Source: a virus. From it: DNA of 41,123 nt. The notes under the pieces are model-generated. The model worked only from the letters and a program-made list of their open reading frames with translations. It searched no databases and was not told the DNA's origin. The DNA is taken from the IMG/VR virus record IMGVR_UViG_3300048930_001422, positions 1-41,123 of that record. One strand, 5' to 3'. The position numbers were made by a program, and so were the translations under genes. Below are positions 4,229 to 39,381 of this stretch, piece by piece (position 1 is the stretch's first letter; every line of letters starts with the position of its first letter).

Positions 4229-4732
4229 GTGGCCCCTCCAGACGACCAGATCTCGCAGGCGGAGTTGATCCGCCTGATGAAGTTCAGTCGCCAGACGGCG
4301 GCGGAATGGTCGCGGAGGCCGGGGTGCCCGAAGGTCGTGGTCGACGGGAAGACGCTCTATCGCTGGCCCGCCTTCGCGGAATGGTACTACACCGAGAAGG
4401 CCACAGCGCTGCTGCCAAAGCCCGACCCGATGGCGCTCGAGGAGGCCAAGAAGCGGAAGCTGGCAGCCGAAGCGGAGCTCGCCGAGCTCGAACTGGCGAA
4501 GGCAAAGGGATTGGTGGTTCCCGTCGAGGCCTTCCGGAGCGCGCTGCTCGGTGCGTTCGGTCGTGTGCGCGCCAAGGCCCGCGAGGCCCCGGGTCGCCTC
4601 ACTCCGCTCCTCATCGGCAAGGGCAAGGCTGCGCTCATCCGCGCGGTGCTCGAGCGCTTCTTCACGGAGCTGCTCGCCGAGCTGCGGCACGAGGACGTGC
4701 CCGACGACGAGCCTGGCGAGGCCGCCGCATGA
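4229..4732 (+). CDS. terS: Terminase small subunit, Nu1-like
   Basis: A 167-residue protein. The N-terminal winged-helix HTH (ISQAELIRLMKFSRQTAAEW, residues 8-27, then the wing CPKVVVDGKTLYRWPAFAEWY) is the lambda gpNu1 DNA-recognition fold that binds cos/pac DNA. A long Ala/Glu/Lys coiled coil (residues 68-94) suits oligomerisation, and the C-terminal helical part would contact the large subunit. The start is a GTG; the upstream ATG at 4210 is in another frame. The stop overlaps the large-subunit ATG (4729-4732), the usual coupling of the two terminase subunits. Confidence is high from both sequence and position. Confidence 0.88.
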   Translation: MAPPDDQISQAELIRLMKFSRQTAAEWSRRPGCPKVVVDGKTLYRWPAFAEWYYTEKATALLPKPDPMALEEAKKRKLAAEAELAELELAKAKGLVVPVEAFRSALLGAFGRVRAKAREAPGRLTPLLIGKGKAALIRAVLERFFTELLAELRHEDVPDDEPGEAAA

Positions 4733-6657
4733 CCTCCCTCGCCCAGATCGAGCGCGAGGTCCGCGCTATCGCCTTCCGTCCAATCCCCAAGCGCACGCTC
4801 TCGAAGTGGGCTGACGATGAGGTCACGCTCGCCCCGACCGAGGGCGGTGGCGCGGGCAAGTGGTACACCGAGCGGGCGGCCTACCTGCGTGAACCCATGG
4901 ACGCGATGTGCGATCAGGGCACCAGAGAGTTGGTCGTCAAGAAATCTGGCCAAGCCGGCGCGACGCTCGCCCTCTCGATTCTCCCCGTGCTCTACTGGAT
5001 GGTCGAGGACCCGACCACCGTAATGATCGTGCAGCCCTCGGAGTCACTGGCGGCCGCGTGGTCTGTCGCGCGATTCGAGCCGAACCGGCTCGAGACGCCA
5101 GCAACTCGCGACCTGATCCAGCAGCATGCCGCTGGTGGGGCACGGCACGCCGGCAACACGCAGCAGTTCAAGGCCTTCCCAGGCGGCTACGTCGTCGTGG
5201 CGTGGGCGAGCTCGGATATGCAGATGCGCTCGCGCCCGGCGCGCGTGATCATCCGCGACGAGCTCAATGCCTGGGAGCCGACGAAGGAGGGCGACTCCGC
5301 CAAGCGCGCTGAGCGGGCCGCGACGACCTATGAGGACTCCAAAAAGGTCCTGGACATCTCGACGCCGACAGTGAAGGGCGCCTCCCGAATTGACGACCGC
5401 TTCGACCTATCCGACCAGCGCTACTACCACGTGCCCTGCCCCGACTGTGGGCACCGCCAGCCGCTGGTGTGGGAGAACGTGCGCTACGACGGCAAGGACC
5501 CCGAGACGTCTCCCGAGACGGCGCGGTATGTCTGCCGGGATTGCGGCACGCTCTGGGATGAGGCCCAGAAGAACGAAGCGGTCCGCATTGCGGACCTGAA
5601 CCACGACGCCTGGGTGCCGACTTACCCGGGCCGGAAGATTGCCGGCTGGCACATCAATGCGATCATGTCGTCGTTCGTGAGCATGGCGGAGCTGGTGAAG
5701 GAGTGGCTTGAGGCGCAGGGCAATGATGCGTTGATGCAGGTCTTCTTCAACCTCAAGCTCGGCCTCGCATGGGAGCTGCGCACCGAAGGGCTGGGGAACG
5801 ACAACCTGCTGGCACGCCGGGAGATCTACGCCGCTCAGGTGCCCGCCGGTGTCGCGATCCTCACGGCCTCGATCGACGTGCAGGACGACCGCTTCGAGAT
5901 CCAGGTGGAGGGCTGGGGGGCGGGCGGGGAGAACTGGAAGATTCAGCACCATGTCATCCCCGGCGACGTCCTGGATGCCGGAACGCAGAGGCTGCTCGAC
6001 GACTTCCTGCGTGGTCGATGGAGGCACGAGAGCGGGACGGAGCTGCGCCTGCGCGCCGCCTGCATGGATGCGGGCGACGGGGACCATACCCAGATGGTCT
6101 ACGCCTTCACCAAGAAGCGCTGGCGCCGCCGCGTCTTCGCCGTGAAGGGTCTCTCGAAGGGTGATGGCAAGGGGTTGGTGCGGCCGCGCCCCTCGGTCGA
6201 CGACAAGAGTGGCGCGAAGTTCTTCCTCTTTGCCCCCAACACGGCGAAGGACATGGTGCTCAGCATGTTCCGGACGCAGGTGCCAGGGCCGCGCTACGTG
6301 CACCTTCCCGACTCCTTTACGGAGGACTGGGTCACCCAGGTGCTGGTGGAACGGAAGCATCCCAAGCGGATGCCCGATGGCTCCACGAAGTGGGTATACC
6401 GGAAGCCGGGGGGCGCGCGCAACGAGGCCCTCGACCTGTGCACGATGAATCTCGTCGCGCTGTCACTCTCCGGCATCCCGGTGGAGCGGTTGGCGCGGAT
6501 GGCCGCACGGCTGCAGGCGAAGATGGGACTGCCCGAGGAGCGAGCGGAGGAGACGGACGACGGCCCCTCGGGGGAGCCGGCGCCAGCCCCGACCAAGACC
6601 AAGAAGCCCGTCGTCCGGAAGGCTTCCGGATGGATGAATCGCTGGAGGTTCAAATGA
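4729..6657 (+). CDS. terL: Terminase large subunit, lambda GpA family
   Basis: 642 residues from the ATG that overlaps the small-subunit stop, a usual length for GpA. The N-terminal ATPase has a Walker-A-like VVKKSGQAGAT (residues 69-79) and a Walker B ARVIIRDE (171-178) with the catalytic Glu. A four-cysteine zinc ribbon (CPDCG and CRDCG, residues 237-273) is inserted, as in many GpA proteins. The nuclease part starts at TASIDVQDDRFEIQVEGWG (Asp383) and continues with CMDAGDGDH and the late NEALDLCTMN block, giving acidic residues for the metal site. It drives DNA packaging and cuts concatemers. The GpA type predicts cos-style packaging, although this is not proven here. Confidence 0.95.
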   Translation: MTSLAQIEREVRAIAFRPIPKRTLSKWADDEVTLAPTEGGGAGKWYTERAAYLREPMDAMCDQGTRELVVKKSGQAGATLALSILPVLYWMVEDPTTVMIVQPSESLAAAWSVARFEPNRLETPATRDLIQQHAAGGARHAGNTQQFKAFPGGYVVVAWASSDMQMRSRPARVIIRDELNAWEPTKEGDSAKRAERAATTYEDSKKVLDISTPTVKGASRIDDRFDLSDQRYYHVPCPDCGHRQPLVWENVRYDGKDPETSPETARYVCRDCGTLWDEAQKNEAVRIADLNHDAWVPTYPGRKIAGWHINAIMSSFVSMAELVKEWLEAQGNDALMQVFFNLKLGLAWELRTEGLGNDNLLARREIYAAQVPAGVAILTASIDVQDDRFEIQVEGWGAGGENWKIQHHVIPGDVLDAGTQRLLDDFLRGRWRHESGTELRLRAACMDAGDGDHTQMVYAFTKKRWRRRVFAVKGLSKGDGKGLVRPRPSVDDKSGAKFFLFAPNTAKDMVLSMFRTQVPGPRYVHLPDSFTEDWVTQVLVERKHPKRMPDGSTKWVYRKPGGARNEALDLCTMNLVALSLSGIPVERLARMAARLQAKMGLPEERAEETDDGPSGEPAPAPTKTKKPVVRKASGWMNRWRFK

Positions 6658-6980: not shown

Positions 6981-7538
6981 ATGATGACGCTGCCGGATTC
7001 GCCTCCCACGCGCGCGCACGCTGGCGCGACATGGACCTGGACCTTTCAGCATCCCGCTGAACGGCCCGCGCCCACGTGGGCGGTGGCGTTCGCGATCGTC
7101 GGCAAGTCGCAGCTCGAGTGGAACCCCGCGTGGGTCACGGTGAGTGGGCAGATCTCGACCATCGCGATTCCCTACAACGCCACCGATGGGCTTGATGGTG
7201 GCACCTACGACGTCACCCAGATCGAGACGAGCAGCACCGAACGGGTCATGACCACGCTGGCCCCGATCGCTGTGCTCGCCAACCCGCTCAATGCCCAGCC
7301 TGGCAGCACTCGCGCGGCTCGGCTGGAGACCCTCATCGGCATCTGCGATGCGTTGCTCGAAGGACGCGCGACAGATGGCATGATGAGTTTCATGGTATTC
7401 GGCCGGCAGATGATGAGCTTCACGCTGGCGGAGATCCGCGGGCTTCGGAAGGGCTGGGTCGATGAGCTCCGTGCGGTCCGGCGGAAGCGAGGCGGCTTCG
7501 GTCGCGCAATTCACTACCGCTTCGGGCGGACCTCGTGA
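6981..7538 (+). CDS. Head-tail joining protein, gpW-like, with an N-terminal beta domain
   Basis: 185 residues from the ATG at 6981; an in-frame GTG at 6972 and an ATG at 6984 are alternatives, and no clear ribosome site distinguishes them. The C-terminal 75 residues (RLETLIGICDALLEG, then FGRQMMSFTLAEIRGLRKGW, then a basic tail) match the helix-hairpin-helix plan of lambda gpW, the 68-residue head-completion protein that sits between portal and tail. The N-terminal 105 residues are beta-rich (GATWTWTFQH, LEWNPAWVTV, STIAIPYNATDGLDGGTYDV) and have no gpW counterpart. Position between terminase and portal equals W in lambda. The fusion is unusual. The stop overlaps the portal GTG. Confidence 0.65.
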   Translation: MMTLPDSPPTRAHAGATWTWTFQHPAERPAPTWAVAFAIVGKSQLEWNPAWVTVSGQISTIAIPYNATDGLDGGTYDVTQIETSSTERVMTTLAPIAVLANPLNAQPGSTRAARLETLIGICDALLEGRATDGMMSFMVFGRQMMSFTLAEIRGLRKGWVDELRAVRRKRGGFGRAIHYRFGRTS

Positions 7539-9088
7539 TCACGCTCCAGCTCCCCAACCGCCGAGCCCCCCGCCCCACCCCGAAGCCGAAGCGCCGAAAG
7601 GCCAGTGCCGTCTACGCCGGCGCCGGGAACAACCGGTATACCAGCGACTGGATTTCGGTGTTGCTCTCGGCCGATCGGGAGACGCGCTCCTCCCTGCGCA
7701 CCCTGCGTGGCCGCTCACGCCAGTTCTCGCGCGACAACGCGCACGTCGCCGGGCTGATCCGCTCCTTCGCCGACAACATCATCGGGCCGGATGGTATCGG
7801 TGTCGCGCCGAAGATGCGCGGCCTCGATGGGCAGCTGCTCAAGCCGTTCAACGATGCCGCCTTCCTCGGGTTCCAACGTTGGGCGGAAGCGGACACCTGC
7901 AGTGCCGATGGCCAGAACTGCTGGTCCGAGTTCCAGCGGCTGGCCCTCTCGACCTGGTTCACCGACGGCGAGTGCTTCGTGCAGCGCCTGGCGGGCTTCG
8001 ACAACGACTGGGGCTACTCGCTCCGCATCATCGACGCGGACTTGCTCGACGAGTCCTACAACGTCGATGCCGCCCCGGGCCAGCGACAGATCACCCAGGG
8101 CATCGAGATCGACGCCTTCGGCCGCCCGGTGGTCTACTGGTTCTGGGATGGGCACCCGTCGGAAAAGATGGGACGCAAGCGCGTGCCGATCGCCGCCTCG
8201 GAGATCGTGCACCTCTTCGTGCAGCTGCGCGCCGGGCAGCGCCGTGGCGTGCCGATGCTCACGCCGGTCCTGATCGCCCTCAACCTCCTTGACGGCTACA
8301 CCGAAGCGGAGATCATGGCGGCGCGCCTCGCGGCCGCGCAGTCGGGCTATTTCCAGGTCACGGGCGAGAACATCGACAAGGCGGCCAGCGCCGACGGCGA
8401 AGACGACGAGGACGATCCGTCGCTGCCGATGGAGATCGAGGTCGAGGCCGGGGTGCACCGGAAGATCCCCGATGGATGGGAGTTCAAGCCGGTCTCGCCG
8501 GACCACCCGAACGGCAACTTCGTCGAGTTCCAGATGGCGATGCTCCGCATGGTCTCCTGCGGTGTCGGCGTCTCGGCGATCACGGCCTCCCATGACCTCT
8601 CGGACACCAGCTACAGCTCCGGCCGCATCGGCCTGCAGGCCGAGCGCGATGCCTTCAAGGCCGTGCAGAACTGGTTCGGTCGACGGCTCGTCACCCCGGT
8701 GTACCGCGACGTCCTGCGCTACGGCAGCTACGCGGGCCTCATCCGCCTCCCGACCCCTGAGCCGACGAAGTGGCAGGACGTCACGCTCGAGCCGCGCGGA
8801 TGGCCGTGGATTGATCCCAAGAACGACGCCGACACCACGAACAAGCGCCTCGCCGGCCTGATCACGTCGCCACAGCGAGTCTGCGCGGCCGAAGGCGTGG
8901 ACGTCGAGGATGTGCTCGATGATTGGGAGGAGTTCGGCAAGATGCTCGCCGCCCGTGGCCTCTCCGCCCCGAACTACGTCGGCGGGTCCCCGCCATCGCA
9001 TGAAGCGTCCGCGGAGCCGGCACCCGGGAGGCAGAAGTCCGCGGCGGCTCGGCTTGCCCTGCTCAACACTCAGGAGGCAACCGCATGA
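7535..9088 (+). CDS. Portal protein, lambda gpB family
   Basis: 517 residues from a GTG overlapping the upstream stop; length and order (terminase, W-like, portal, protease) match lambda B. Typical landmarks are SRQFSRDNAHVAGLIRSFAD (residues 61-80), the NIIGPDGIG segment, the DGECFVQRL strand, the long stem/crown helices around YTEAEIMAARLAAAQSGYF and the PTKWQDVTLEPRGWPWIDP block near residue 415. An acidic loop with a DGEDDEDD run follows the stem region. Twelve copies form the channel for DNA entry and exit and the seat for the head-tail joining proteins. The C-terminus is Ala/Pro-rich and likely flexible. Confidence 0.93.
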   Translation: MITLQLPNRRAPRPTPKPKRRKASAVYAGAGNNRYTSDWISVLLSADRETRSSLRTLRGRSRQFSRDNAHVAGLIRSFADNIIGPDGIGVAPKMRGLDGQLLKPFNDAAFLGFQRWAEADTCSADGQNCWSEFQRLALSTWFTDGECFVQRLAGFDNDWGYSLRIIDADLLDESYNVDAAPGQRQITQGIEIDAFGRPVVYWFWDGHPSEKMGRKRVPIAASEIVHLFVQLRAGQRRGVPMLTPVLIALNLLDGYTEAEIMAARLAAAQSGYFQVTGENIDKAASADGEDDEDDPSLPMEIEVEAGVHRKIPDGWEFKPVSPDHPNGNFVEFQMAMLRMVSCGVGVSAITASHDLSDTSYSSGRIGLQAERDAFKAVQNWFGRRLVTPVYRDVLRYGSYAGLIRLPTPEPTKWQDVTLEPRGWPWIDPKNDADTTNKRLAGLITSPQRVCAAEGVDVEDVLDDWEEFGKMLAARGLSAPNYVGGSPPSHEASAEPAPGRQKSAAARLALLNTQEATA

Positions 9089-11565
9089 AGAGCGGATCCC
9101 CGCACGTCATCCAGGCGGCCCTCGGTACGGTGTGGGCCCTGCAGCCGCAGCGGCTTGCCGCCGTGGCGCAGGTGCTCGCCCGCTGGGCCAGTGGTGAGAA
9201 GCTCTCGGCGACCGAGATCCAGGCGCGCATCGGCGATGGCAAGGGCGCGCCGCAGCAGGGCGCAGGTGTGGCCGTGCTCCCGCTCTACGGCATCATCGGC
9301 CACCGCATGAACCAGGTGCAGGACATCAGCGGGCCCGGCGGCACGTCGACCGAACAGTTCGGACAGTGGTTCGATGCCGCGCTGCACGACCCGGCGATCG
9401 GCGCCATCGTGCTCGACATCGATTCGCCTGGCGGATCCGTGTCGGGCGTGCCCGAGCTGGCGGCGAAGATCTTCGCCGCACGTGGGCAGAAGCCGATCAT
9501 CGCGATCGCGAACTCGCTTGCTGCCAGCGCGGCCTACTGGATCGGAACGGCCGCGGAAGAGTTCTGGTGCACCCCATCGGGCGACGTCGGCTCGATCGGC
9601 GTTTACACGATGCACCAGGACTTCTCCGCCTACTTCGCCGACGTGGGCATCACCAACACACTCGTCAGCGCCGGGAAGTTCAAGGTCGAAGGCAATCCGT
9701 ACGAGCCACTCGACGAGGAAGCGCGCGCCGCGTTGCAGGAGCGCATCGACGAGATCTACGCCGACTTCACCAAGGCCGTGGCACTGCATCGAGGTGTTAC
9801 GGCGGCCGATGTGCGCAACGGCTTTGGGGAAGGCCGGGTGGTGTCGGCGGTCCGCGCGAAACGTCTCGGCATGATCGACAAGGTCGGCACCCTCGACACC
9901 CTCCTGAGCAAGCTCAGCGCAGGCGGCTCGCGTAGCCGGCTCAAGGCCGCCGATCTCGCCCCGTCGCCGCAGCTCAGCGCCGGCGCCGAGCCCGGCGTGA
10001 TCGTCGAGCTCTCCGATCACCCCATGGTCCTCGGCTATGTCGAAGCGGCGATCGACGCCGACGAGGCAGCGATCGAGGCCGCCACCGCGGCGAGCGGCAT
10101 GCTCGACCCGGCGTATCTGGCAGCGAAGATCGCTGCCGCCCATCCATCGCAGGGCCGAGCGGGCGTGGCCGCCGGACCTGTCGTGTTTCCCATCCACGGG
10201 GCCGACGAGGCCAAGGAGTTCGCGATGTCCGACAAGGGCACGCCGGTCGCGGAAGCGGCTGCGCAGGCGGCACTCGCCGCCGCCGAGAAGGAGAATGAGC
10301 GCGTTGCCGCGCTGGGCGCGCTCGCCGCCGACGAGGGCGTGAGTGTCAGCGTCCTGAACGGCTGGGTCAGCAACAAGATGTCGGTAGAGCAGGCCATGAA
10401 GGGGCTCCTGGCGGACAAGAAGGCCGCCCGTGCCGGCGCACCGGTCATCCGGCACAACGTCGACCCGCTCGACGGCGGCGACAACGGCACCAAGGCGGGC
10501 CCGTTCCGCACGCTCGCCGACAACCTGCAGCACATCCGGTACGCTGGCGAGGGACATGTCACGCCGCAGCTCGCGAGCCTCATGACCATGCGGGCCGCCG
10601 TGACCGGCGCCTCTGCGACTGTGGGGGCCGACGGTGGCTTCCTGATCCAGCAGGATCACGCGATCGGGCTGCTCGAGTCCGCGTTCAAGGCCGGCGAGAT
10701 CCTCAGCCGGTGCGACACCACCGAGCTGACTGGCAATTCGGATGGGCTCGAGGTCGTGTACCTCGATGAAGTGTCGCGCGAGAACGGATCCCGCTGGGGC
10801 GGCGTGCAGGTCTTCCGCGTCGGCGAGGCCCCGGAGTCCGTCACCAGCGGCAAGGCGCAGTTGGGTCGATGGGAGCGCCGGGTGGAGGACATCGAGGGCG
10901 TTGCCTTCATGACCGAGCGCCTGCTGGCCGATGCACCGGCGATGGCCGACGTCTTCTCGAAGGGGTTCACGGAGGAATTCAAGTTCGTCGTGGAGAACGA
11001 ATGCTTCCGCGGGACCGGGGTCGGCCAGGGCTTGGGGATCTTCACGCTCGGCGATGGCGTGCCGACGGTCGCCGCCGCGAAGGCCAGCGGCCAGCCGGCC
11101 GACACCGTCGTCTACGAGAACATCCAGAAGATGTGGCAGTCGGTGCTGCCGAGCGCCCGCGCGCGTGGAGCGTGGTTCATCAACACCGAGGTCGAGGAGC
11201 AGCTCGACGGGATGATGATCGGTACCGGAACCTCCGGCCAGCTGGTCTACATGCCCCCGGGCGGCATCTCCGGCTCGCCGTACGGCTTCATCAAGGGGCG
11301 CCCGGTCATCGTCACCGAGTACTCGTCCGGCCTCGGCGATCTCGGCGACATCTGCTTCGCGGACTGGAGCGCCTACAAGCTCGTGACGAAGGGCGGCGTG
11401 GAGGCCGCAGACTCGATGCACGTCCGCTTCATCCAGCGCGAGCGGACGTTCCGCTGGACCACGCGCGTCAACGGCGCGCCGAAGGACAAGCAGGCGATCA
11501 AGCCGTTCAAGGCCACCAACGCGAGCCTCCGTCTCACGAACTTCGCGACCCTCGCGGCGCGCTGA
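9085..11565 (+). CDS. Prohead protease-scaffold-major capsid polyprotein
   Basis: A single 826-residue reading frame. Residues 60-290 are an S49/SppA-type protease: DIDSPGGSVSG (111-121), Ser148 in NSLAASAAYW as nucleophile and Lys198/Lys200 in SAGKFKVEGNPYEPL as general base. Residues 290-380 are a variable linker. From Met381, residues to about 485 are Ala/Glu-rich and scaffold-like (an HK97 delta-domain analogue), and the rest is an HK97-fold capsid protein (GGFLIQQD, YLDEVSRENGSRWGG, PYGFIKGRPVIVTEY, then the C-terminal P-loop). In lambda the protease (C), the scaffold (Nu3, an internal start) and the capsid (E) are encoded separately from one another or nested. Here capsid is fused in frame. 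A ribosome site before Met381 suggests that capsid is also made alone. Confidence 0.9.
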   Translation: MKSGSPHVIQAALGTVWALQPQRLAAVAQVLARWASGEKLSATEIQARIGDGKGAPQQGAGVAVLPLYGIIGHRMNQVQDISGPGGTSTEQFGQWFDAALHDPAIGAIVLDIDSPGGSVSGVPELAAKIFAARGQKPIIAIANSLAASAAYWIGTAAEEFWCTPSGDVGSIGVYTMHQDFSAYFADVGITNTLVSAGKFKVEGNPYEPLDEEARAALQERIDEIYADFTKAVALHRGVTAADVRNGFGEGRVVSAVRAKRLGMIDKVGTLDTLLSKLSAGGSRSRLKAADLAPSPQLSAGAEPGVIVELSDHPMVLGYVEAAIDADEAAIEAATAASGMLDPAYLAAKIAAAHPSQGRAGVAAGPVVFPIHGADEAKEFAMSDKGTPVAEAAAQAALAAAEKENERVAALGALAADEGVSVSVLNGWVSNKMSVEQAMKGLLADKKAARAGAPVIRHNVDPLDGGDNGTKAGPFRTLADNLQHIRYAGEGHVTPQLASLMTMRAAVTGASATVGADGGFLIQQDHAIGLLESAFKAGEILSRCDTTELTGNSDGLEVVYLDEVSRENGSRWGGVQVFRVGEAPESVTSGKAQLGRWERRVEDIEGVAFMTERLLADAPAMADVFSKGFTEEFKFVVENECFRGTGVGQGLGIFTLGDGVPTVAAAKASGQPADTVVYENIQKMWQSVLPSARARGAWFINTEVEEQLDGMMIGTGTSGQLVYMPPGGISGSPYGFIKGRPVIVTEYSSGLGDLGDICFADWSAYKLVTKGGVEAADSMHVRFIQRERTFRWTTRVNGAPKDKQAIKPFKATNASLRLTNFATLAAR
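10213..10227 (+). promoter_or_regulatory. Internal ribosome binding site and start codon in the capsid polyprotein
   Basis: AAGGAG occurs at 10213-10218, and an in-frame ATG follows at 10225-10227 after a 6-base spacer. Translation from here gives a 446-residue scaffold plus capsid protein (MSDKGTPVAEAA and onward) without the protease. Domain content changes exactly at this point, from a variable linker to a new Ala/Glu-rich domain. This is the same arrangement as the nested Nu3 start inside lambda C. Use of the site is inferred from spacing and domain boundary, not shown. Confidence 0.65.
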
Positions 11566-21965: not shown

Positions 21966-22655
21966 ATGCAGCCCTTCAAGAAGGCCCTCTCCTGGCTCTC
22001 CGGCGCGGCAATGCTGGTGGGTGCCCTGATCGAGGTCCTGCAGCAGACCGGTATCGCGTTCGATCCCACCTCGCCTGTCGGCAAGATCATTCTCGCCGCC
22101 GGCGTGGCCGTCCTCTTCGTCCGAAATCTCACTGAGGACAAGGACGGCGACGGGGTACCGGATGTCTTCCAGCCGAAGCCGCGCCCCGGGACGGGAGCGA
22201 GTCGGACCACGCCGTCGATCGCCGTGCTGCTCGCGCTGATGAGTCTCGGCACCGTCGCGTGTCGCCCGGTCTACGCGGCGCCGCCGCGTGTCGACGTGCT
22301 CGCGCTTGGGGCGCCGACGCAGGTCGACACCACGCTGCATCGCGCGATCGAGTGCGGCTCGCCGGCATTCCGCGCGGCCAATCCCGATGTGCTCAGTTGC
22401 CGCTGGCAGATCACGAAGACGCAGAACGGCCTCACCGCCATCGTCACGGTGCCGAATAGCCTCACCGCCGCAATCGCCTTCACGGGCCAGCCTGCCGACT
22501 CGGCGCGGTACCAGGTCACGGCATGGACCGTGGCGCGCGGCCTCGAAGGGCCGCCCGTCAGTACCGATTTCTGGCTCGTGATTGCGAATCGCCCGCCGGC
22601 GGGCGCGGATACCCTGATCGTGCGCGTCTGTCCTCCGGTCGGCTGCGGGCCGTGA
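21966..22655 (+). CDS. Holin-like membrane protein joined to a lipoprotein-like domain
   Basis: 229 residues. Residues 7-28 and 38-53 are two hydrophobic segments of a small holin-like hairpin, followed by a Ca-binding-loop-like DKDGDGVPD (58-66) and a Pro-rich linker. A third hydrophobic segment then ends in a lipobox, ALMSLGTVAC (Cys at residue 99), followed by a soluble, Pro- and Ala-containing periplasmic-type domain with cysteines. A lipobox inside a chain is odd. Either an internal start makes a separate outer-membrane lipoprotein (an o-spanin analogue) or the segment is a plain membrane helix. GAGGAGTA (21954-21961) serves the ATG. It overlaps the next GTG. Confidence 0.5.
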   Translation: MQPFKKALSWLSGAAMLVGALIEVLQQTGIAFDPTSPVGKIILAAGVAVLFVRNLTEDKDGDGVPDVFQPKPRPGTGASRTTPSIAVLLALMSLGTVACRPVYAAPPRVDVLALGAPTQVDTTLHRAIECGSPAFRAANPDVLSCRWQITKTQNGLTAIVTVPNSLTAAIAFTGQPADSARYQVTAWTVARGLEGPPVSTDFWLVIANRPPAGADTLIVRVCPPVGCGP

Positions 22656-24076
22656 TCCGCCGAGTGCTCGCCGCGCTCACCGTGATGGCGTCGGGGTGCT
22701 TCGCCCCGGCGCCACTCGTCACGCAGGCCCCCAGCCGGTACGTGCTCTCGGTTCGCGACGACGTCGCGAGCTCGAGCGATTCGGCGATCGCGGCCGTCCA
22801 GCGGCTGGGTGGATCCGCGACGGTCAACACGCCGGCGACGGTGATCGCGATCGTGCGCGCCTCGGTGATTCGCGATTCACTCTGGGTCGCGAATGACACG
22901 GCGCGCGTGCTCGTCACCGGGCCGTGGCGACGTTGGCTCGCTGCGGCCGAGTACGACGGACTGATCCAGCTGCCGATAGACTCGACGGTCGACCTCGCGT
23001 CGACGCAGGAGCTTGGGGGGCTCCTCAGCGTCACGTGGGGTGTGGACGCCGTGGGCGCGCGCGCCGCCTGGGCCATGGGGGCGCGCGGCGACGGCGTGAC
23101 GGTCGCCTCGAATGACAGCGGGATGGATCCGCACCCCGGGTACATCCTCGCCGGCGGCTACAACGCGGTGACCCGCTCGGAGACGGGCTGGGGTGACACC
23201 ATGCCGGAGTGCCGCAGCCACGGCATGCACGTCGGCGGCACCATGAGCGATCGCACCGGGCGCGGCGTCGCGCCCGGCAGCACCGTGTTCGGCATCCAGG
23301 TGTTCGAGCTGATCGGTGGGCAGTGCCTCAGCTATGCGAGCAACCAGATCGCGGGCATCAACTGGGCAGTAAGCAAGGGTGCTGCCTGTGTGAACCAAAG
23401 CATTAGCGGGGGCCCCAGCTATTCGGTGACGCAGGCAGTGCTCGCGGCCAATGCGCGTGGCACCGTCGTGGTGCGCGCGAATGGGAACAGCGGGGCACCG
23501 CCTCCGCAGGGTACGCTCCCCGAGATCCAGACTGCGAGCGTTGGCGGCGGCCTCACCCGCTCGAACTTTTCGAACCCGGGCCCCACCACCGATCTCGCGG
23601 CACCTGGTGAAGGCGTCGAGAGCACGATGCCGGGCGGCTACGGGACGAAGAGCGGCACGAGCATGGCCGCCCCGCACGTGTGCGGGGTCGTGGCCCTCGT
23701 GAAGAGCATCGCGCCACAGCTCTCGGCCGACAGCATGCTCGCCCTGCTCCAGGCGACGGCGCTGCCCCTCGGATCCCCAACGCCGAACGACAACACGGGC
23801 TGGGGCCTTGTGCGCGCCGATCGCGCGATCGCGGGGCTCCTCGGCGGAGTCGGGATCGCGGCCCCGGCCACTGACACCGTCCTGAGCGCCGCACCGCTCC
23901 CAGCGCAGACCTGCAAGCCCGTCGTCGCGCTCGGCAGCTGGAGCGCCTCCGCCAACGTGCCGTGGATCCGCGTGACCACGACGCCGGACTCCCTCTGCTA
24001 CACCATCGACTCTGCGCTCGTGCCTGGCGGCATGTCGACCGTTACTGGCACCATCACCACCAGGAGCAATCCATGA
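22652..24076 (+). CDS. Subtilisin-family (S8) serine protease with lipoprotein signal
   Basis: 474 residues from a GTG overlapping the previous stop. Residues 1-16 are a lipobox signal (VLAALTVMASGC), predicting a lipid-anchored exported enzyme. Residues 28-90 look like an I9-type propeptide. The catalytic domain has Asp155 (VASNDSGMDPHPG), His190 (CRSHGMHVGGTMSD), Asn279 of the oxyanion hole (VRANGNSG) and Ser337 (SGTSMAAPHVCG), so the full triad is intact. The C-terminal 90 residues form a beta-type extension. Subtilases are rare in phage late operons. It may process surface proteins during adsorption or release, or act as a lysogenic-conversion protein. The class is certain; the role is not. 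Confidence 0.9.
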   Translation: MIRRVLAALTVMASGCFAPAPLVTQAPSRYVLSVRDDVASSSDSAIAAVQRLGGSATVNTPATVIAIVRASVIRDSLWVANDTARVLVTGPWRRWLAAAEYDGLIQLPIDSTVDLASTQELGGLLSVTWGVDAVGARAAWAMGARGDGVTVASNDSGMDPHPGYILAGGYNAVTRSETGWGDTMPECRSHGMHVGGTMSDRTGRGVAPGSTVFGIQVFELIGGQCLSYASNQIAGINWAVSKGAACVNQSISGGPSYSVTQAVLAANARGTVVVRANGNSGAPPPQGTLPEIQTASVGGGLTRSNFSNPGPTTDLAAPGEGVESTMPGGYGTKSGTSMAAPHVCGVVALVKSIAPQLSADSMLALLQATALPLGSPTPNDNTGWGLVRADRAIAGLLGGVGIAAPATDTVLSAAPLPAQTCKPVVALGSWSASANVPWIRVTTTPDSLCYTIDSALVPGGMSTVTGTITTRSNP

Positions 24077-34730: not shown

Positions 34731-35010
34731 GCTCATCCCGGCATTCCTGCTGTCCCCGTCGGCGCTGCGGAAGCGGCTGCGCGAAACCGAAGCGCAACTC
34801 GCGGCGGAGCGTGCCAACACGGCCGCGCTGCAGGAGCAGATCGGCGCCCTGAAGGTGACCGTCGGCCTGCAGTACCTCGATCTCGTCGGCGCCCGGGCCC
34901 GCCTCGCTTCGAAGGACGCATGGATCCGCCAGCTTGAGCGCAAGGTCGCGCGCCTGCAGGGTCGTTCTCTTCCCGCGCCGCGGCGCCGTGCCGTGCAGGT
35001 GGCGCAGTGA
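34720..35010 (+). CDS. Coiled-coil protein
   Basis: 96 residues from a GTG with AGGAG at 34708-34712. Residues 18-80 form one long heptad-like helix (ALRKRLRETEAQLAAERANT, then ARLASKDAWIRQLERKVARL) that should dimerise. The N-terminus (ARKLIPAFLL) is mildly hydrophobic. It stands directly before the ParB-like gene, and its stop overlaps the ParB start (35007-35010). An accessory or partner role to ParB is possible but unproven. Confidence 0.45.
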   Translation: MARKLIPAFLLSPSALRKRLRETEAQLAAERANTAALQEQIGALKVTVGLQYLDLVGARARLASKDAWIRQLERKVARLQGRSLPAPRRRAVQVAQ

Positions 35011-36629
35011 GCGGCGCGACGGTGGAACTGGTGGCGACATCGGCGATCGACGCGGCCGAAGTGCAATTCCTCGAAGTGCCGCTCAGCCTCTTGCGCGAGT
35101 CGCCCGACAACCCGCGCCGGCGCTTCGACCCCGACGCGCTCGCCAACCTCCAGGAGAGTCTCGCGCGGAGCGGGATGCTGACACCGATTCGCGTCCGCAC
35201 CATCCCCACCGAGAGCGTCTTCCACGGCGGCTACGTGATCGCGGCGGGCCACCGGCGGTATCGCGCCGCGAAGGCGCTCGGCTGGGAGAAGGTGCCGGTG
35301 CTCGCGAGCGAGATGACCGATGCGCAGTTCCTGGAAGTGATGACGGTGGACAACCTGCAGCGCGACGACCTACACCCGATGGACGAAGCCCGCGGCTTTG
35401 CGCTTCTGATCAAGGAGCTCGGCTACGACATCGCCCGGGTCGCGCATCGCGTCGGCAAGTCCGAGACCTACGTCTACGATCGCGTGCGGCTGCTCAAGCT
35501 CACGCCGCGTGCCCAGGAGATGTTTTCGGCGGATCGCTTCCCGCTGAGCCATGCCATCGTGCTGTCGCGCCTCGCGCCCGCCGGGCAGGAGCTCGTGATC
35601 GGGACGCTCAAGCGGAGCTTCAACGACGGCGGGCTCTTCCGGCCCGACGCGTTGCGCGAGCAGCAGGGCGACCTGATCAGCACGGGCACGATGGAGGAGG
35701 TGCTCGATCGCCTCACCCCGCGCAGCCTCCGCGAGCTGGAGACATGGATCGAAAAGCATGTGCGCTTCGACCGGGAGGCCAAGGATCTGCCCGAGCTGTT
35801 CCCCCAGACCGCCGAGCAGATCGCCGCGGCGCTGGCGGCGAAGGGGAAGGTGATTCCGGTCACGTTCGAGTTCACGATCCGCGACAGCGCCCTGGCGGAA
35901 GAGCGGACGCTCGGCCCGCGCGCGTTCCGGGAGGCGAGTGGCCGCGGCAAGGACACACCGACGTGCGAGTACTCGGTGCTCGGCGTCGTGGTCGTGGGGC
36001 ACCGCCGAGGCGAGTCATTCCCCATCTGCATCGCGAAGGAGAAGTGCACGGTCCACTACGCCCGCGAGATCCGCGAGAAGAGGAAGCGCGAGAAGGAACG
36101 TGCGGCGGCCGAGGCCACCGGCACCGTCGCGGCACACAAGGCGAAGGAAGCCGATCGCGACCACGCCGCCAAGGCAAAGCGCGAGGCTGAGGCAGCGTTC
36201 GATGCTCGATTGAGGAAGGCGACACCCGCACTCGAGGCCGCCGTGCGGAGCGCTGTGCCGAAGGCGCCTATGCGGGCGCTGGCCAGAATCGTCCTCACCA
36301 ACGTTCTCGGGCTCTACAACCCGAAGGTTGAGAAGCAATTCACCAAAGACCTCGCCGCTGGGAAATTCGATTCCGCGGAGGCCATTGTCCTGGAATGCGC
36401 CACGTCCGAATTGCTTCAGGACTTGGGCCCATGGGCTTGGAAGGAGTTCTCCGAGTCCATGCGGGCGATCGGCGTTGACGCCGTCGCCGTAGTCGATGCT
36501 GCGGCACCCCCACCGGCCCCGAAGCCCGCGCCCAAGGCCAAGGCAACGGCCGCGGCGAAGAAGGCCCCGGCCAAGCCGGTGAAGAAGCTCGCCGGTGATG
36601 TGCGTCGCGCGAAGAAGGCGGTGGCGTGA
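35007..36629 (+). CDS. ParB/Spo0J-like DNA-binding protein
   Basis: 540 residues from a GTG overlapping the previous stop. Residues 21-100 form the ParB N-terminal domain (FLEVPLSLLRESPDNPRRRF; AAGHRRYRAAKALGW carries the GxRRxxA CTP-binding-type motif at 81-87), then DNLQRDDLHPMDEARGF (115-131, box II) and an HTH region (DIARVAHRVGKSETYVYDRV, 141-160). The middle part has a Cys cluster (C at the CEYSV, CIAKEKC and H positions, residues 318-355) and coiled coils. The C-terminus is Lys/Ala/Pro-rich. No ParA is present in the window, so plasmid-type partition looks incomplete. A phage regulator or nuclease-like ParB is as likely. Confidence 0.8.
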   Translation: MSGATVELVATSAIDAAEVQFLEVPLSLLRESPDNPRRRFDPDALANLQESLARSGMLTPIRVRTIPTESVFHGGYVIAAGHRRYRAAKALGWEKVPVLASEMTDAQFLEVMTVDNLQRDDLHPMDEARGFALLIKELGYDIARVAHRVGKSETYVYDRVRLLKLTPRAQEMFSADRFPLSHAIVLSRLAPAGQELVIGTLKRSFNDGGLFRPDALREQQGDLISTGTMEEVLDRLTPRSLRELETWIEKHVRFDREAKDLPELFPQTAEQIAAALAAKGKVIPVTFEFTIRDSALAEERTLGPRAFREASGRGKDTPTCEYSVLGVVVVGHRRGESFPICIAKEKCTVHYAREIREKRKREKERAAAEATGTVAAHKAKEADRDHAAKAKREAEAAFDARLRKATPALEAAVRSAVPKAPMRALARIVLTNVLGLYNPKVEKQFTKDLAAGKFDSAEAIVLECATSELLQDLGPWAWKEFSESMRAIGVDAVAVVDAAAPPPAPKPAPKAKATAAAKKAPAKPVKKLAGDVRRAKKAVA

Positions 36630-37955: not shown

Positions 37956-38593
37956 ACTACACCACGCGTCCGATCTCGACGTGGCTCGGCACCCGCACGG
38001 GCCCGCGCACGCACGCCCGCTTCAAGGTCAGCTACGGCGTCAGCGAGGACCTGCTGCTCCGCGAGCTGCAGCATCTGCGCGCCAAGGACGTCGTGCTCGA
38101 GATTGATATCCAGGCGAGCGACCTGCGCCTGGACGGCACCCTGCGCGCGAATGCCAAGCCGCAGGGTCCCCGGGTCTGCCTGTATGCCAGCACGAAGCAC
38201 GGGCCGCTCATGATGCCGTGCGACACCTTCACGGACTGGCGCCACAACGTGCGGGCGATCGCGCTCTCGCTCGAGGCGCTTCGTCAGGTCGATCGCTATG
38301 GCTGTGCGGCCCGTGGGGAGCAGTACCGCGGGTGGACCGCGATCCCGGCGTCGACGAGCATGACGACCCGGGTAGAGGCCGCCTGGCAGCTGCTGTACGA
38401 CACCGTTGGCAGGGCGCGTGGTGGGCGACAGACGATTCAGGCCGAAGGGGACGATCGGGACCGCGCCGAGATGGAGTCGCTGTTCCGCGAGGCAGCCTTG
38501 TTCGTGCACCCTGATGCTGGCGGGAGCCACGACCTCATGTCGGCCGTGAATCGCGCGCGCGAAACCATCCTGCTGGACCTTGGGGAACGCTGA
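37952..38593 (+). CDS. Early protein with C-terminal J-domain-like motif
   Basis: 213 residues from an ATG overlapping the upstream stop. Residues 20-150 contain an unassigned alpha/beta domain (LEIDIQASDLRLDGTLRANA, CLYASTKHGPLMMPCDTF, ALEALRQVDRYG). The last 40 residues hold LFREAALFVHPDAGGSHDLM followed by SAVNRARETIL, the helix-HPD-helix hallmark of DnaJ domains. This class of phage protein is frequent near replication genes and may direct host DnaK to replication complexes, as lambda uses DnaJ/DnaK. The J motif is clear, although helix I is short. The first domain is not identified. Confidence 0.6.
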   Translation: MNYTTRPISTWLGTRTGPRTHARFKVSYGVSEDLLLRELQHLRAKDVVLEIDIQASDLRLDGTLRANAKPQGPRVCLYASTKHGPLMMPCDTFTDWRHNVRAIALSLEALRQVDRYGCAARGEQYRGWTAIPASTSMTTRVEAAWQLLYDTVGRARGGRQTIQAEGDDRDRAEMESLFREAALFVHPDAGGSHDLMSAVNRARETILLDLGER

Positions 38594-39381
38594 TGGCCCG
38601 CATTCGGACGATCAAGCCGGAATTCTGGCAAGACGAGAAGCTCGCGCCGCTCGATGCGGTGACGCGCCTCGTGTTCTTGGGGTTGATCGGCATGGCAGAC
38701 GATGCGGGTCGCGTGCTCGACAACGTGAAGATTATCGACGCTTTCATTTTCCCGGAGACCTCGGACTCTTGTCGCGAGGCGCTCGCGACGCTCTCGCGAA
38801 TGGGTCGCGTGCTTCGCGGAACGACCTCCAGCGGACAGCGGGTGATTCAGATCACGCACTGGGCGGACCACCAACGCGTGGATCGTCCGAACCTTCACGC
38901 GGCCCTCCCGGAAATCGTTGTGCCAGTTGAAGTTGACCACGCTCGCGAGGACGACGCGAATCAATCGCGAGAGAGTCGCGAGCGCCTCGCGCCCCGACCT
39001 ACGACCAACGACCTACGATCTCCGACCGACGAGCAGCGGACCGCGAGCGAGCACGACGCGACGGCAACGCGTGCGGAAGTTCGTGGGTGGACGCAACTCG
39101 AGGCCGACATCCCAGCCGACAATCGCCCCGACCTCGTCGTAGCGCTGCGTGAGGCTCGCGATCCGGATTCGCTGCGCCGCACCCTCGTTGCTGTCAGCGA
39201 AGGCATGACGACGGGCGTCCCATTCACCGCGGCCATCATCGGCCAAGCGCTCACCGAGCTGCGCTCCTCCGGGAGAGCAGTGACGGGTTTGTCGCTCCGG
39301 ACCTACTGCGGTCGCATCGCGAAGGAACGTGCCGCCCCGATCCCGAAGCGTTCACCCGAGGAGCTCTACGCCGATGCATGA
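38593..39381 (+). CDS. Phage replication initiation protein (lambda O-like)
   Basis: 262 residues. The N-terminus MARIRTIKPEFWQDEKLAPL, then RLVFLGLIGMADDAGRVLD is the recurrent start of phage replication initiators, with a winged-helix domain to residue 105 (PETSDSCREALATLSRMGRV, IQITHWADHQRVDRP). A charged linker with many Arg/Asp/Thr (residues 120-175) may carry the origin itself within the gene, as in lambda O. The C-terminal part (residues 180-262) would contact the helicase loader made by the next gene. The codon composition of the linker is less GC-biased than its surroundings. It overlaps the next gene by 8 bases. Confidence 0.75.
   Translation: MARIRTIKPEFWQDEKLAPLDAVTRLVFLGLIGMADDAGRVLDNVKIIDAFIFPETSDSCREALATLSRMGRVLRGTTSSGQRVIQITHWADHQRVDRPNLHAALPEIVVPVEVDHAREDDANQSRESRERLAPRPTTNDLRSPTDEQRTASEHDATATRAEVRGWTQLEADIPADNRPDLVVALREARDPDSLRRTLVAVSEGMTTGVPFTAAIIGQALTELRSSGRAVTGLSLRTYCGRIAKERAAPIPKRSPEELYADA

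Follow-up and report, generated by a model that had tools for sequence, protein, structure and literature searches.

The C protein of phage lambda is an S49-type protease with a C-terminal scaffold part, Nu3, which the phage also produces as a separate protein by initiating at an internal start in the same frame. The protease of HK97 belongs to family S78. An HK97 prohead has 415 capsid subunits to about 60 copies of the protease, and a D3 prohead 540 to about 90; the first 102 or 113 residues of the capsid protein serve as the scaffold (PMC12749128). With the protease in such a minority, an equimolar fusion of the two proteins would be far off these proportions.

Fusions of these functions have been reported repeatedly. 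The Gifsy-2 gene is called tripartite in the title of Effantin et al. 2010, and the accessible text on MD8 treats its protease-scaffold-capsid gene as one product (PMC8508860). Available portions of other papers describe protease-scaffold-capsid fusions in actinophages (Microbacterium EE/EL, Arthrobacter AM/AU/AN, and Rhodococcus RRH1; PMC7302621, PMC5513430) and fused genes in Paracoccus prophages (PMC6536676) and thaumarchaeal proviruses (PMC6563490). How a phage with such a gene avoids making equal amounts of protease and shell protein is not accounted for in the accessible parts of these open papers. We found no report of an inner start in such fusions in the open literature, and the available text of the MD8, actinophage, Paracoccus, and thaumarchaeal papers makes no mention of one. 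A conserved inner start would explain how fused genes fix the amount of protease relative to shell protein. Fused protease-scaffold-capsid genes and the nesting seen in lambda are thus both already known, and the gene described here combines them with S49 and HK97 parts. New here are an S49-HK97 fusion whose inner start is conserved, and the finding that the device recurs across protease types.

Domain architecture of the fused gene

The window, by which we mean the whole stretch of DNA analysed, is the complete 41,123-base IMG/VR virus record IMGVR_UViG_3300048930_001422. Its features are listed in Table 1. Protease, scaffold, and capsid lie in one open frame, as in the tripartite genes of Gifsy-2 and MD8, except that the protease of those phages is ClpP-type and that of the window is S49. 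Pfam placed Peptidase_S49 at residues 134-278 (5.9e-34) and Phage_capsid PF05065 at residues 517-809 (1.4e-27). The NCBI models concurred, with major_cap_HK97 TIGR01554 (1e-33) above its cut-off and SppA_dom slightly below its own. The capsid part therefore has the HK97-type major capsid fold of PF05065, and the actinophage fusions join the same functions in one gene.

Table 1. Coordinates of the fused gene, its parts, its start signals, and its upstream neighbours in the window
Feature	Position	Strand	Details and basis
Terminase large subunit (phrog_15)	4306..6657	+	
Portal gene (phrog_21)	7535..9088	+	Directly upstream of the fusion
Shine-Dalgarno AGGAGG of first start	9072..9077	+	-10.3 kcal/mol
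Fused protease-linker-scaffold-capsid gene	9085..11565	+	826 aa, internal stop absent; open frame, Pfam and NCBI models
ATGA overlap, fusion start and portal stop	9085..9088	+	
S49 protease domain	9250..9924	+	Residues 56-280; Pfam, SppA alignment, model, Foldseek
Ser148 codon	9526..9528	+	SppA alignment
Lys200 codon	9682..9684	+	SppA alignment
Linker	9928..10245	+	Residues 282-387; mostly disordered (predicted), poorly conserved, large indels
Internal Shine-Dalgarno AAGGAG	10213..10218	+	-8.0 kcal/mol
Internal ATG start, codon 381, in frame	10225..10227	+	ATG or GTG across six fused genes
Predicted second product, scaffold and capsid	10225..11565	+	446 aa
Helical scaffold (delta-like) domain	10246..10437	+	Residues 388-451; AlphaFold model
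Mostly disordered stretch	10438..10512	+	Residues 452-476; model
HK97-type capsid domain PF05065	10633..11511	+	Residues 517-809; Pfam, NCBI model, structure model, Foldseek

An AlphaFold model of the fusion protein, built from 38 related rows, was confident for the protease (about residues 56-280), mostly below a pLDDT of 50 for the linker of roughly 105 residues at 282-387, and about 95 for the helical domain at 388-451. A second disordered stretch (452-469) was followed by the capsid domain from about residue 477. In Foldseek the protease matched SppA (4kwb, 3rst; rmsd about 2.2 Å across 220 residues), and the capsid part matched the capsids of GTA, T5, and DT57C. The agreement of Pfam and the model bears out the preliminary description, which had read the frame as an S49-type protease, a scaffold-like part, and an HK97-fold capsid. 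Its proposed catalytic residues, Ser148 and Lys198/200, stand for Ser148 and Lys200 and fall for Lys198. Ser148 aligns with the Ser of the AAS motif in B. subtilis SppA, Lys200 rather than Lys198 aligns with the catalytic-lysine position, and in an alignment of four fusions Lys200 was invariant and Lys198 variable. By alignment, then, the protein has a Peptidase S49 domain with a predicted Ser/Lys dyad.

Antisense to the fusion lies a 783-aa open frame (9070-11421, minus strand), for which GC-rich codon usage probably accounts. Elsewhere in the window, a second protease-like protein (phrog_3677) is encoded at 22523-24076, downstream of a Dit-like tail gene. A ParB-like protein is encoded at 35007-36629 and a member of a replication initiation protein family at 38593-39381, and the record is possibly a phage-plasmid.

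The inner start and its conservation in fused relatives

The AAGGAG and the in-frame ATG that would begin a 446-aa product were found where they had been described, with a spacing of 6 nt. In the AlphaFold model the inner start, residue 381, falls where the disordered linker ends, with the scaffold helices beginning 7 residues further on, and so does sit at a domain border; the length of stand-alone capsid genes agrees with this placement. The strength of the inner Shine-Dalgarno (SD) sequence is unexceptional in this GC-rich frame, where three other internal in-frame start codons have an equal or stronger match, and we dropped the SD strength of one sequence as a proof of the inner start. Local RNA folding around the site (-26.7 kcal/mol over 65 nt, GC-rich and fairly structured) was uninformative; 75% of the positions in the frame are no more structured than this one.

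Six S49-HK97 fusions were found, comprising the window and five relatives (L002, L006, L132, L302, and L310) that are 45-57% identical to it; scans of genome contigs found no fused relative. A DNA pattern, GAGGCCAAGGAG-N6-ATG, scanned in viral contigs was too unspecific, matching at least 119 stretches. Relatives with separate S49 and capsid genes, each with its own start and the capsid gene preceded by its own ribosome-binding site, include Bradyrhizobium phage ppBdUSDA122-1, the Paraburkholderia phymatum plasmid pBPHY01, the Tritonibacter plasmid p5, L003, and many metagenomic contigs. In the S49 tree, the fused rows form two well-supported trios (window/L002/L006 and L132/L302/L310), with which a single origin of all six is still compatible.

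All six fused genes keep AGGAG-N6-ATG/GTG, although the linker around it has diverged and carries large indels. The site reads AAGGAG-N6-ATG in the window, L002, and L006, AAGGAG-N6-GTG in L132 and L302, and CAGGAG-N6-GTG in L310, where Gln-Glu replaces Lys-Glu and AGGAG is retained. Relatives that keep the fusion and lose the ribosome-binding site had been named beforehand as evidence against the inner start, and none was seen among the six. Three alignment columns hold a start-type codon in every gene, and an SD match in all six accompanies the inner-start column only; the worst anti-SD match of the six is -7.4 kcal/mol there and -1.5 at the next column. When synonymous codons were shuffled with the proteins kept, 1 of 300 shuffles gave an equally good column. 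The exchange of ATG and GTG, together with the change of Lys to Gln under a retained AGGAG, fits a signal for translation better than a motif of the protein.

In 72 capsid genes without a fused detected protease, the best-scoring start lay a median of 132 codons before the capsid core, and most lay 110-146 before it. The inner starts of the fusions lie 116-136 codons before the core (124 in the window), a distance that is fixed by profile construction for the window, L002, and L006 and free of it for the others. The 446-aa product would thus have the N-terminal length of the capsid proteins of stand-alone relatives.

A probable pair of nested products and competing readings

From what the comparisons show, namely the domains, the site, and how well it is conserved, we put the probability at roughly 0.78 that one reading frame gives two nested products, with a protease-bearing minority co-assembling and removing the scaffold near residues 452-476. 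Ribosomes leaving the portal gene would start at the first ATG and make the 826-aa protease-scaffold-capsid chain, while others would start at the inner AAGGAG/ATG and make the 446-aa scaffold-capsid chain of about 47 kDa, an ordinary HK97-type capsid precursor. Because both chains carry scaffold and capsid parts, a minority of protease-bearing chains could enter the same procapsid as the shorter ones; the shared parts would bring the protease into the shell as the Nu3 part does for lambda C. The tethered protease would then remove the scaffold and free or destroy itself. We infer from HK97 and D3 that residues 452-476 are the likely region of removal. It is plausible that the protease:capsid ratio is low and that the chains co-assemble by way of the capsid domain.

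The likeness to lambda C/Nu3 is an in-frame internal ribosome-binding site and start from which, as predicted from sequence, a second protein with the same C-terminal part would be made, next to portal and terminase genes of the same broad families. The nested product of lambda, however, is scaffold only, with capsid E a separate gene, whereas that of the window is scaffold plus HK97-type capsid. HK97 gp4/gp5 and D3 have, as proposed for the window, a capsid precursor whose N-terminal scaffold is about 100 residues long and a maturation protease in the minority (PMC12749128), but their protease and capsid are separate genes.

The overlap of the fusion start with the portal stop, present also in L002 (GTGA) and L006 (ATGA), suggests that translation of the fusion is coupled to the portal gene, as the first start of the window probably is. 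This first start has a stronger SD than the inner one, so the ratio of the products cannot be read from the sequence. The first start of L002 is weak (GTG, -3.0 kcal/mol), and the assumed first start of L132 is without an SD; such weak first starts would favour capsid.

An alternative, which we consider unlikely, is that the 826-aa chain is the sole product, with a protease that cuts itself off the scaffold-capsid part before or during assembly and EAKExxM serving as a conserved cleavage or structural motif. The accessible description of MD8 as having one gene for all three functions (PMC8508860) and the naming of the Gifsy-2 gene as tripartite are in line with it. The linker is predicted to be disordered and therefore cleavable, and four of the fusions conserve Ala-Lys-Glu at the protein level, so part of the motif could be kept for the protein. 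A peptide motif, however, fits poorly with a codon that alternates between ATG and GTG and is of start type in all six genes, with AGGAG surviving the loss of Lys, with the codon shuffles, and with a start position that matches stand-alone capsid genes. On the geometry of HK97, 415 copies of the 40-kDa protease part would, by a rough estimate, fill most of a T=7 procapsid.

The inner signals could instead be a leftover of a separate capsid gene whose importance was lost after fusion. Split relatives are common and close, and the fused rows sit in two separate S49 subclades (one origin being possible), but retention of the site across 45-57% identity, in both subclades and in an otherwise eroded linker, makes a mere relic improbable. 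Accident is the least credible reading, and we give it hardly any weight. Lys-Glu codons in GC-rich DNA do resemble AAGGAG, with Met or Val there by chance, and given Lys-Glu, AAG-GAG in all four of the first sequences has a probability of 0.37; yet K-E-x-x followed by a start-type codon occurs once per frame, at the same column, and the column and codon-shuffle tests both disfavour it. The claim of two products is thus well supported by comparison, through the conservation of the site and the ATG/GTG exchange. Two nested products would mean that current annotation gives one product where two are likely. They would also suggest a route to fusion, in which the stop codon between two genes is lost and the fusion is tolerated because the capsid gene retains its own start.

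Inner starts in other fused capsid genes

Among Gifsy-2/MD8-type ClpP-capsid fusions from eight phages, one column has a start codon and an SD in all, corresponding to Gifsy-2 Met221, where the ClpP domain ends, so that the border start is conserved in this group also. The conserved SD and ATG (EFxxMP) lie directly after the protease domain at codon 221 of Gifsy-2 (L130, 22471-24561) and codon 220 of MD8 (L212). In the mEp213 gene the inner start is codon 211. Seven metagenomic ClpP- or S78-capsid fusions (L141, L147, L157, L225, L227, L229, and L231) have a very strong SD before the border Met, AAGGAGGTA and similar, at -11 to -12.6 kcal/mol. The scaffold part starts Cys-rich (e.g. MNCTIC, MDKCKICG) in most of these seven, the L225 frame being read from 3357. 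Four further genes (L313, L316, L317, and L322) fuse S49 to another capsid family, PF25209 Phage_capsid_4, and have an in-frame border ATG (M-D-K/S) with a weak to good SD. The border site is weak in RcKai and RcRhea, and weak or absent in ep3, phiHAP-1, L156, and RRH1, the one actinophage fusion tested, which differs from the window in lacking a strong one.

When sites of -7.5 kcal/mol or lower were counted as strong across 22 non-redundant fusions, their density per 1000 codons was 5.3 within the linker against 2.4 outside it (Fisher p = 0.006, approximate since the ORFs are partly related), and 17 of the 22 genes had a strong linker site. We see about even odds that S49, ClpP, and S78 fusions share a general device, a ribosome-binding site and start placed where protease meets scaffold and retained time and again, by which tripartite genes including those of Gifsy-2 and MD8 would yield two nested products at a set ratio. 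One further gene, L299 (3593-5449), joins an S49 protease to a 210-aa tail in a lambda C/Nu3-like arrangement, and the border between them carries a strong internal start (CAGGGAGGA, ATG 4868).
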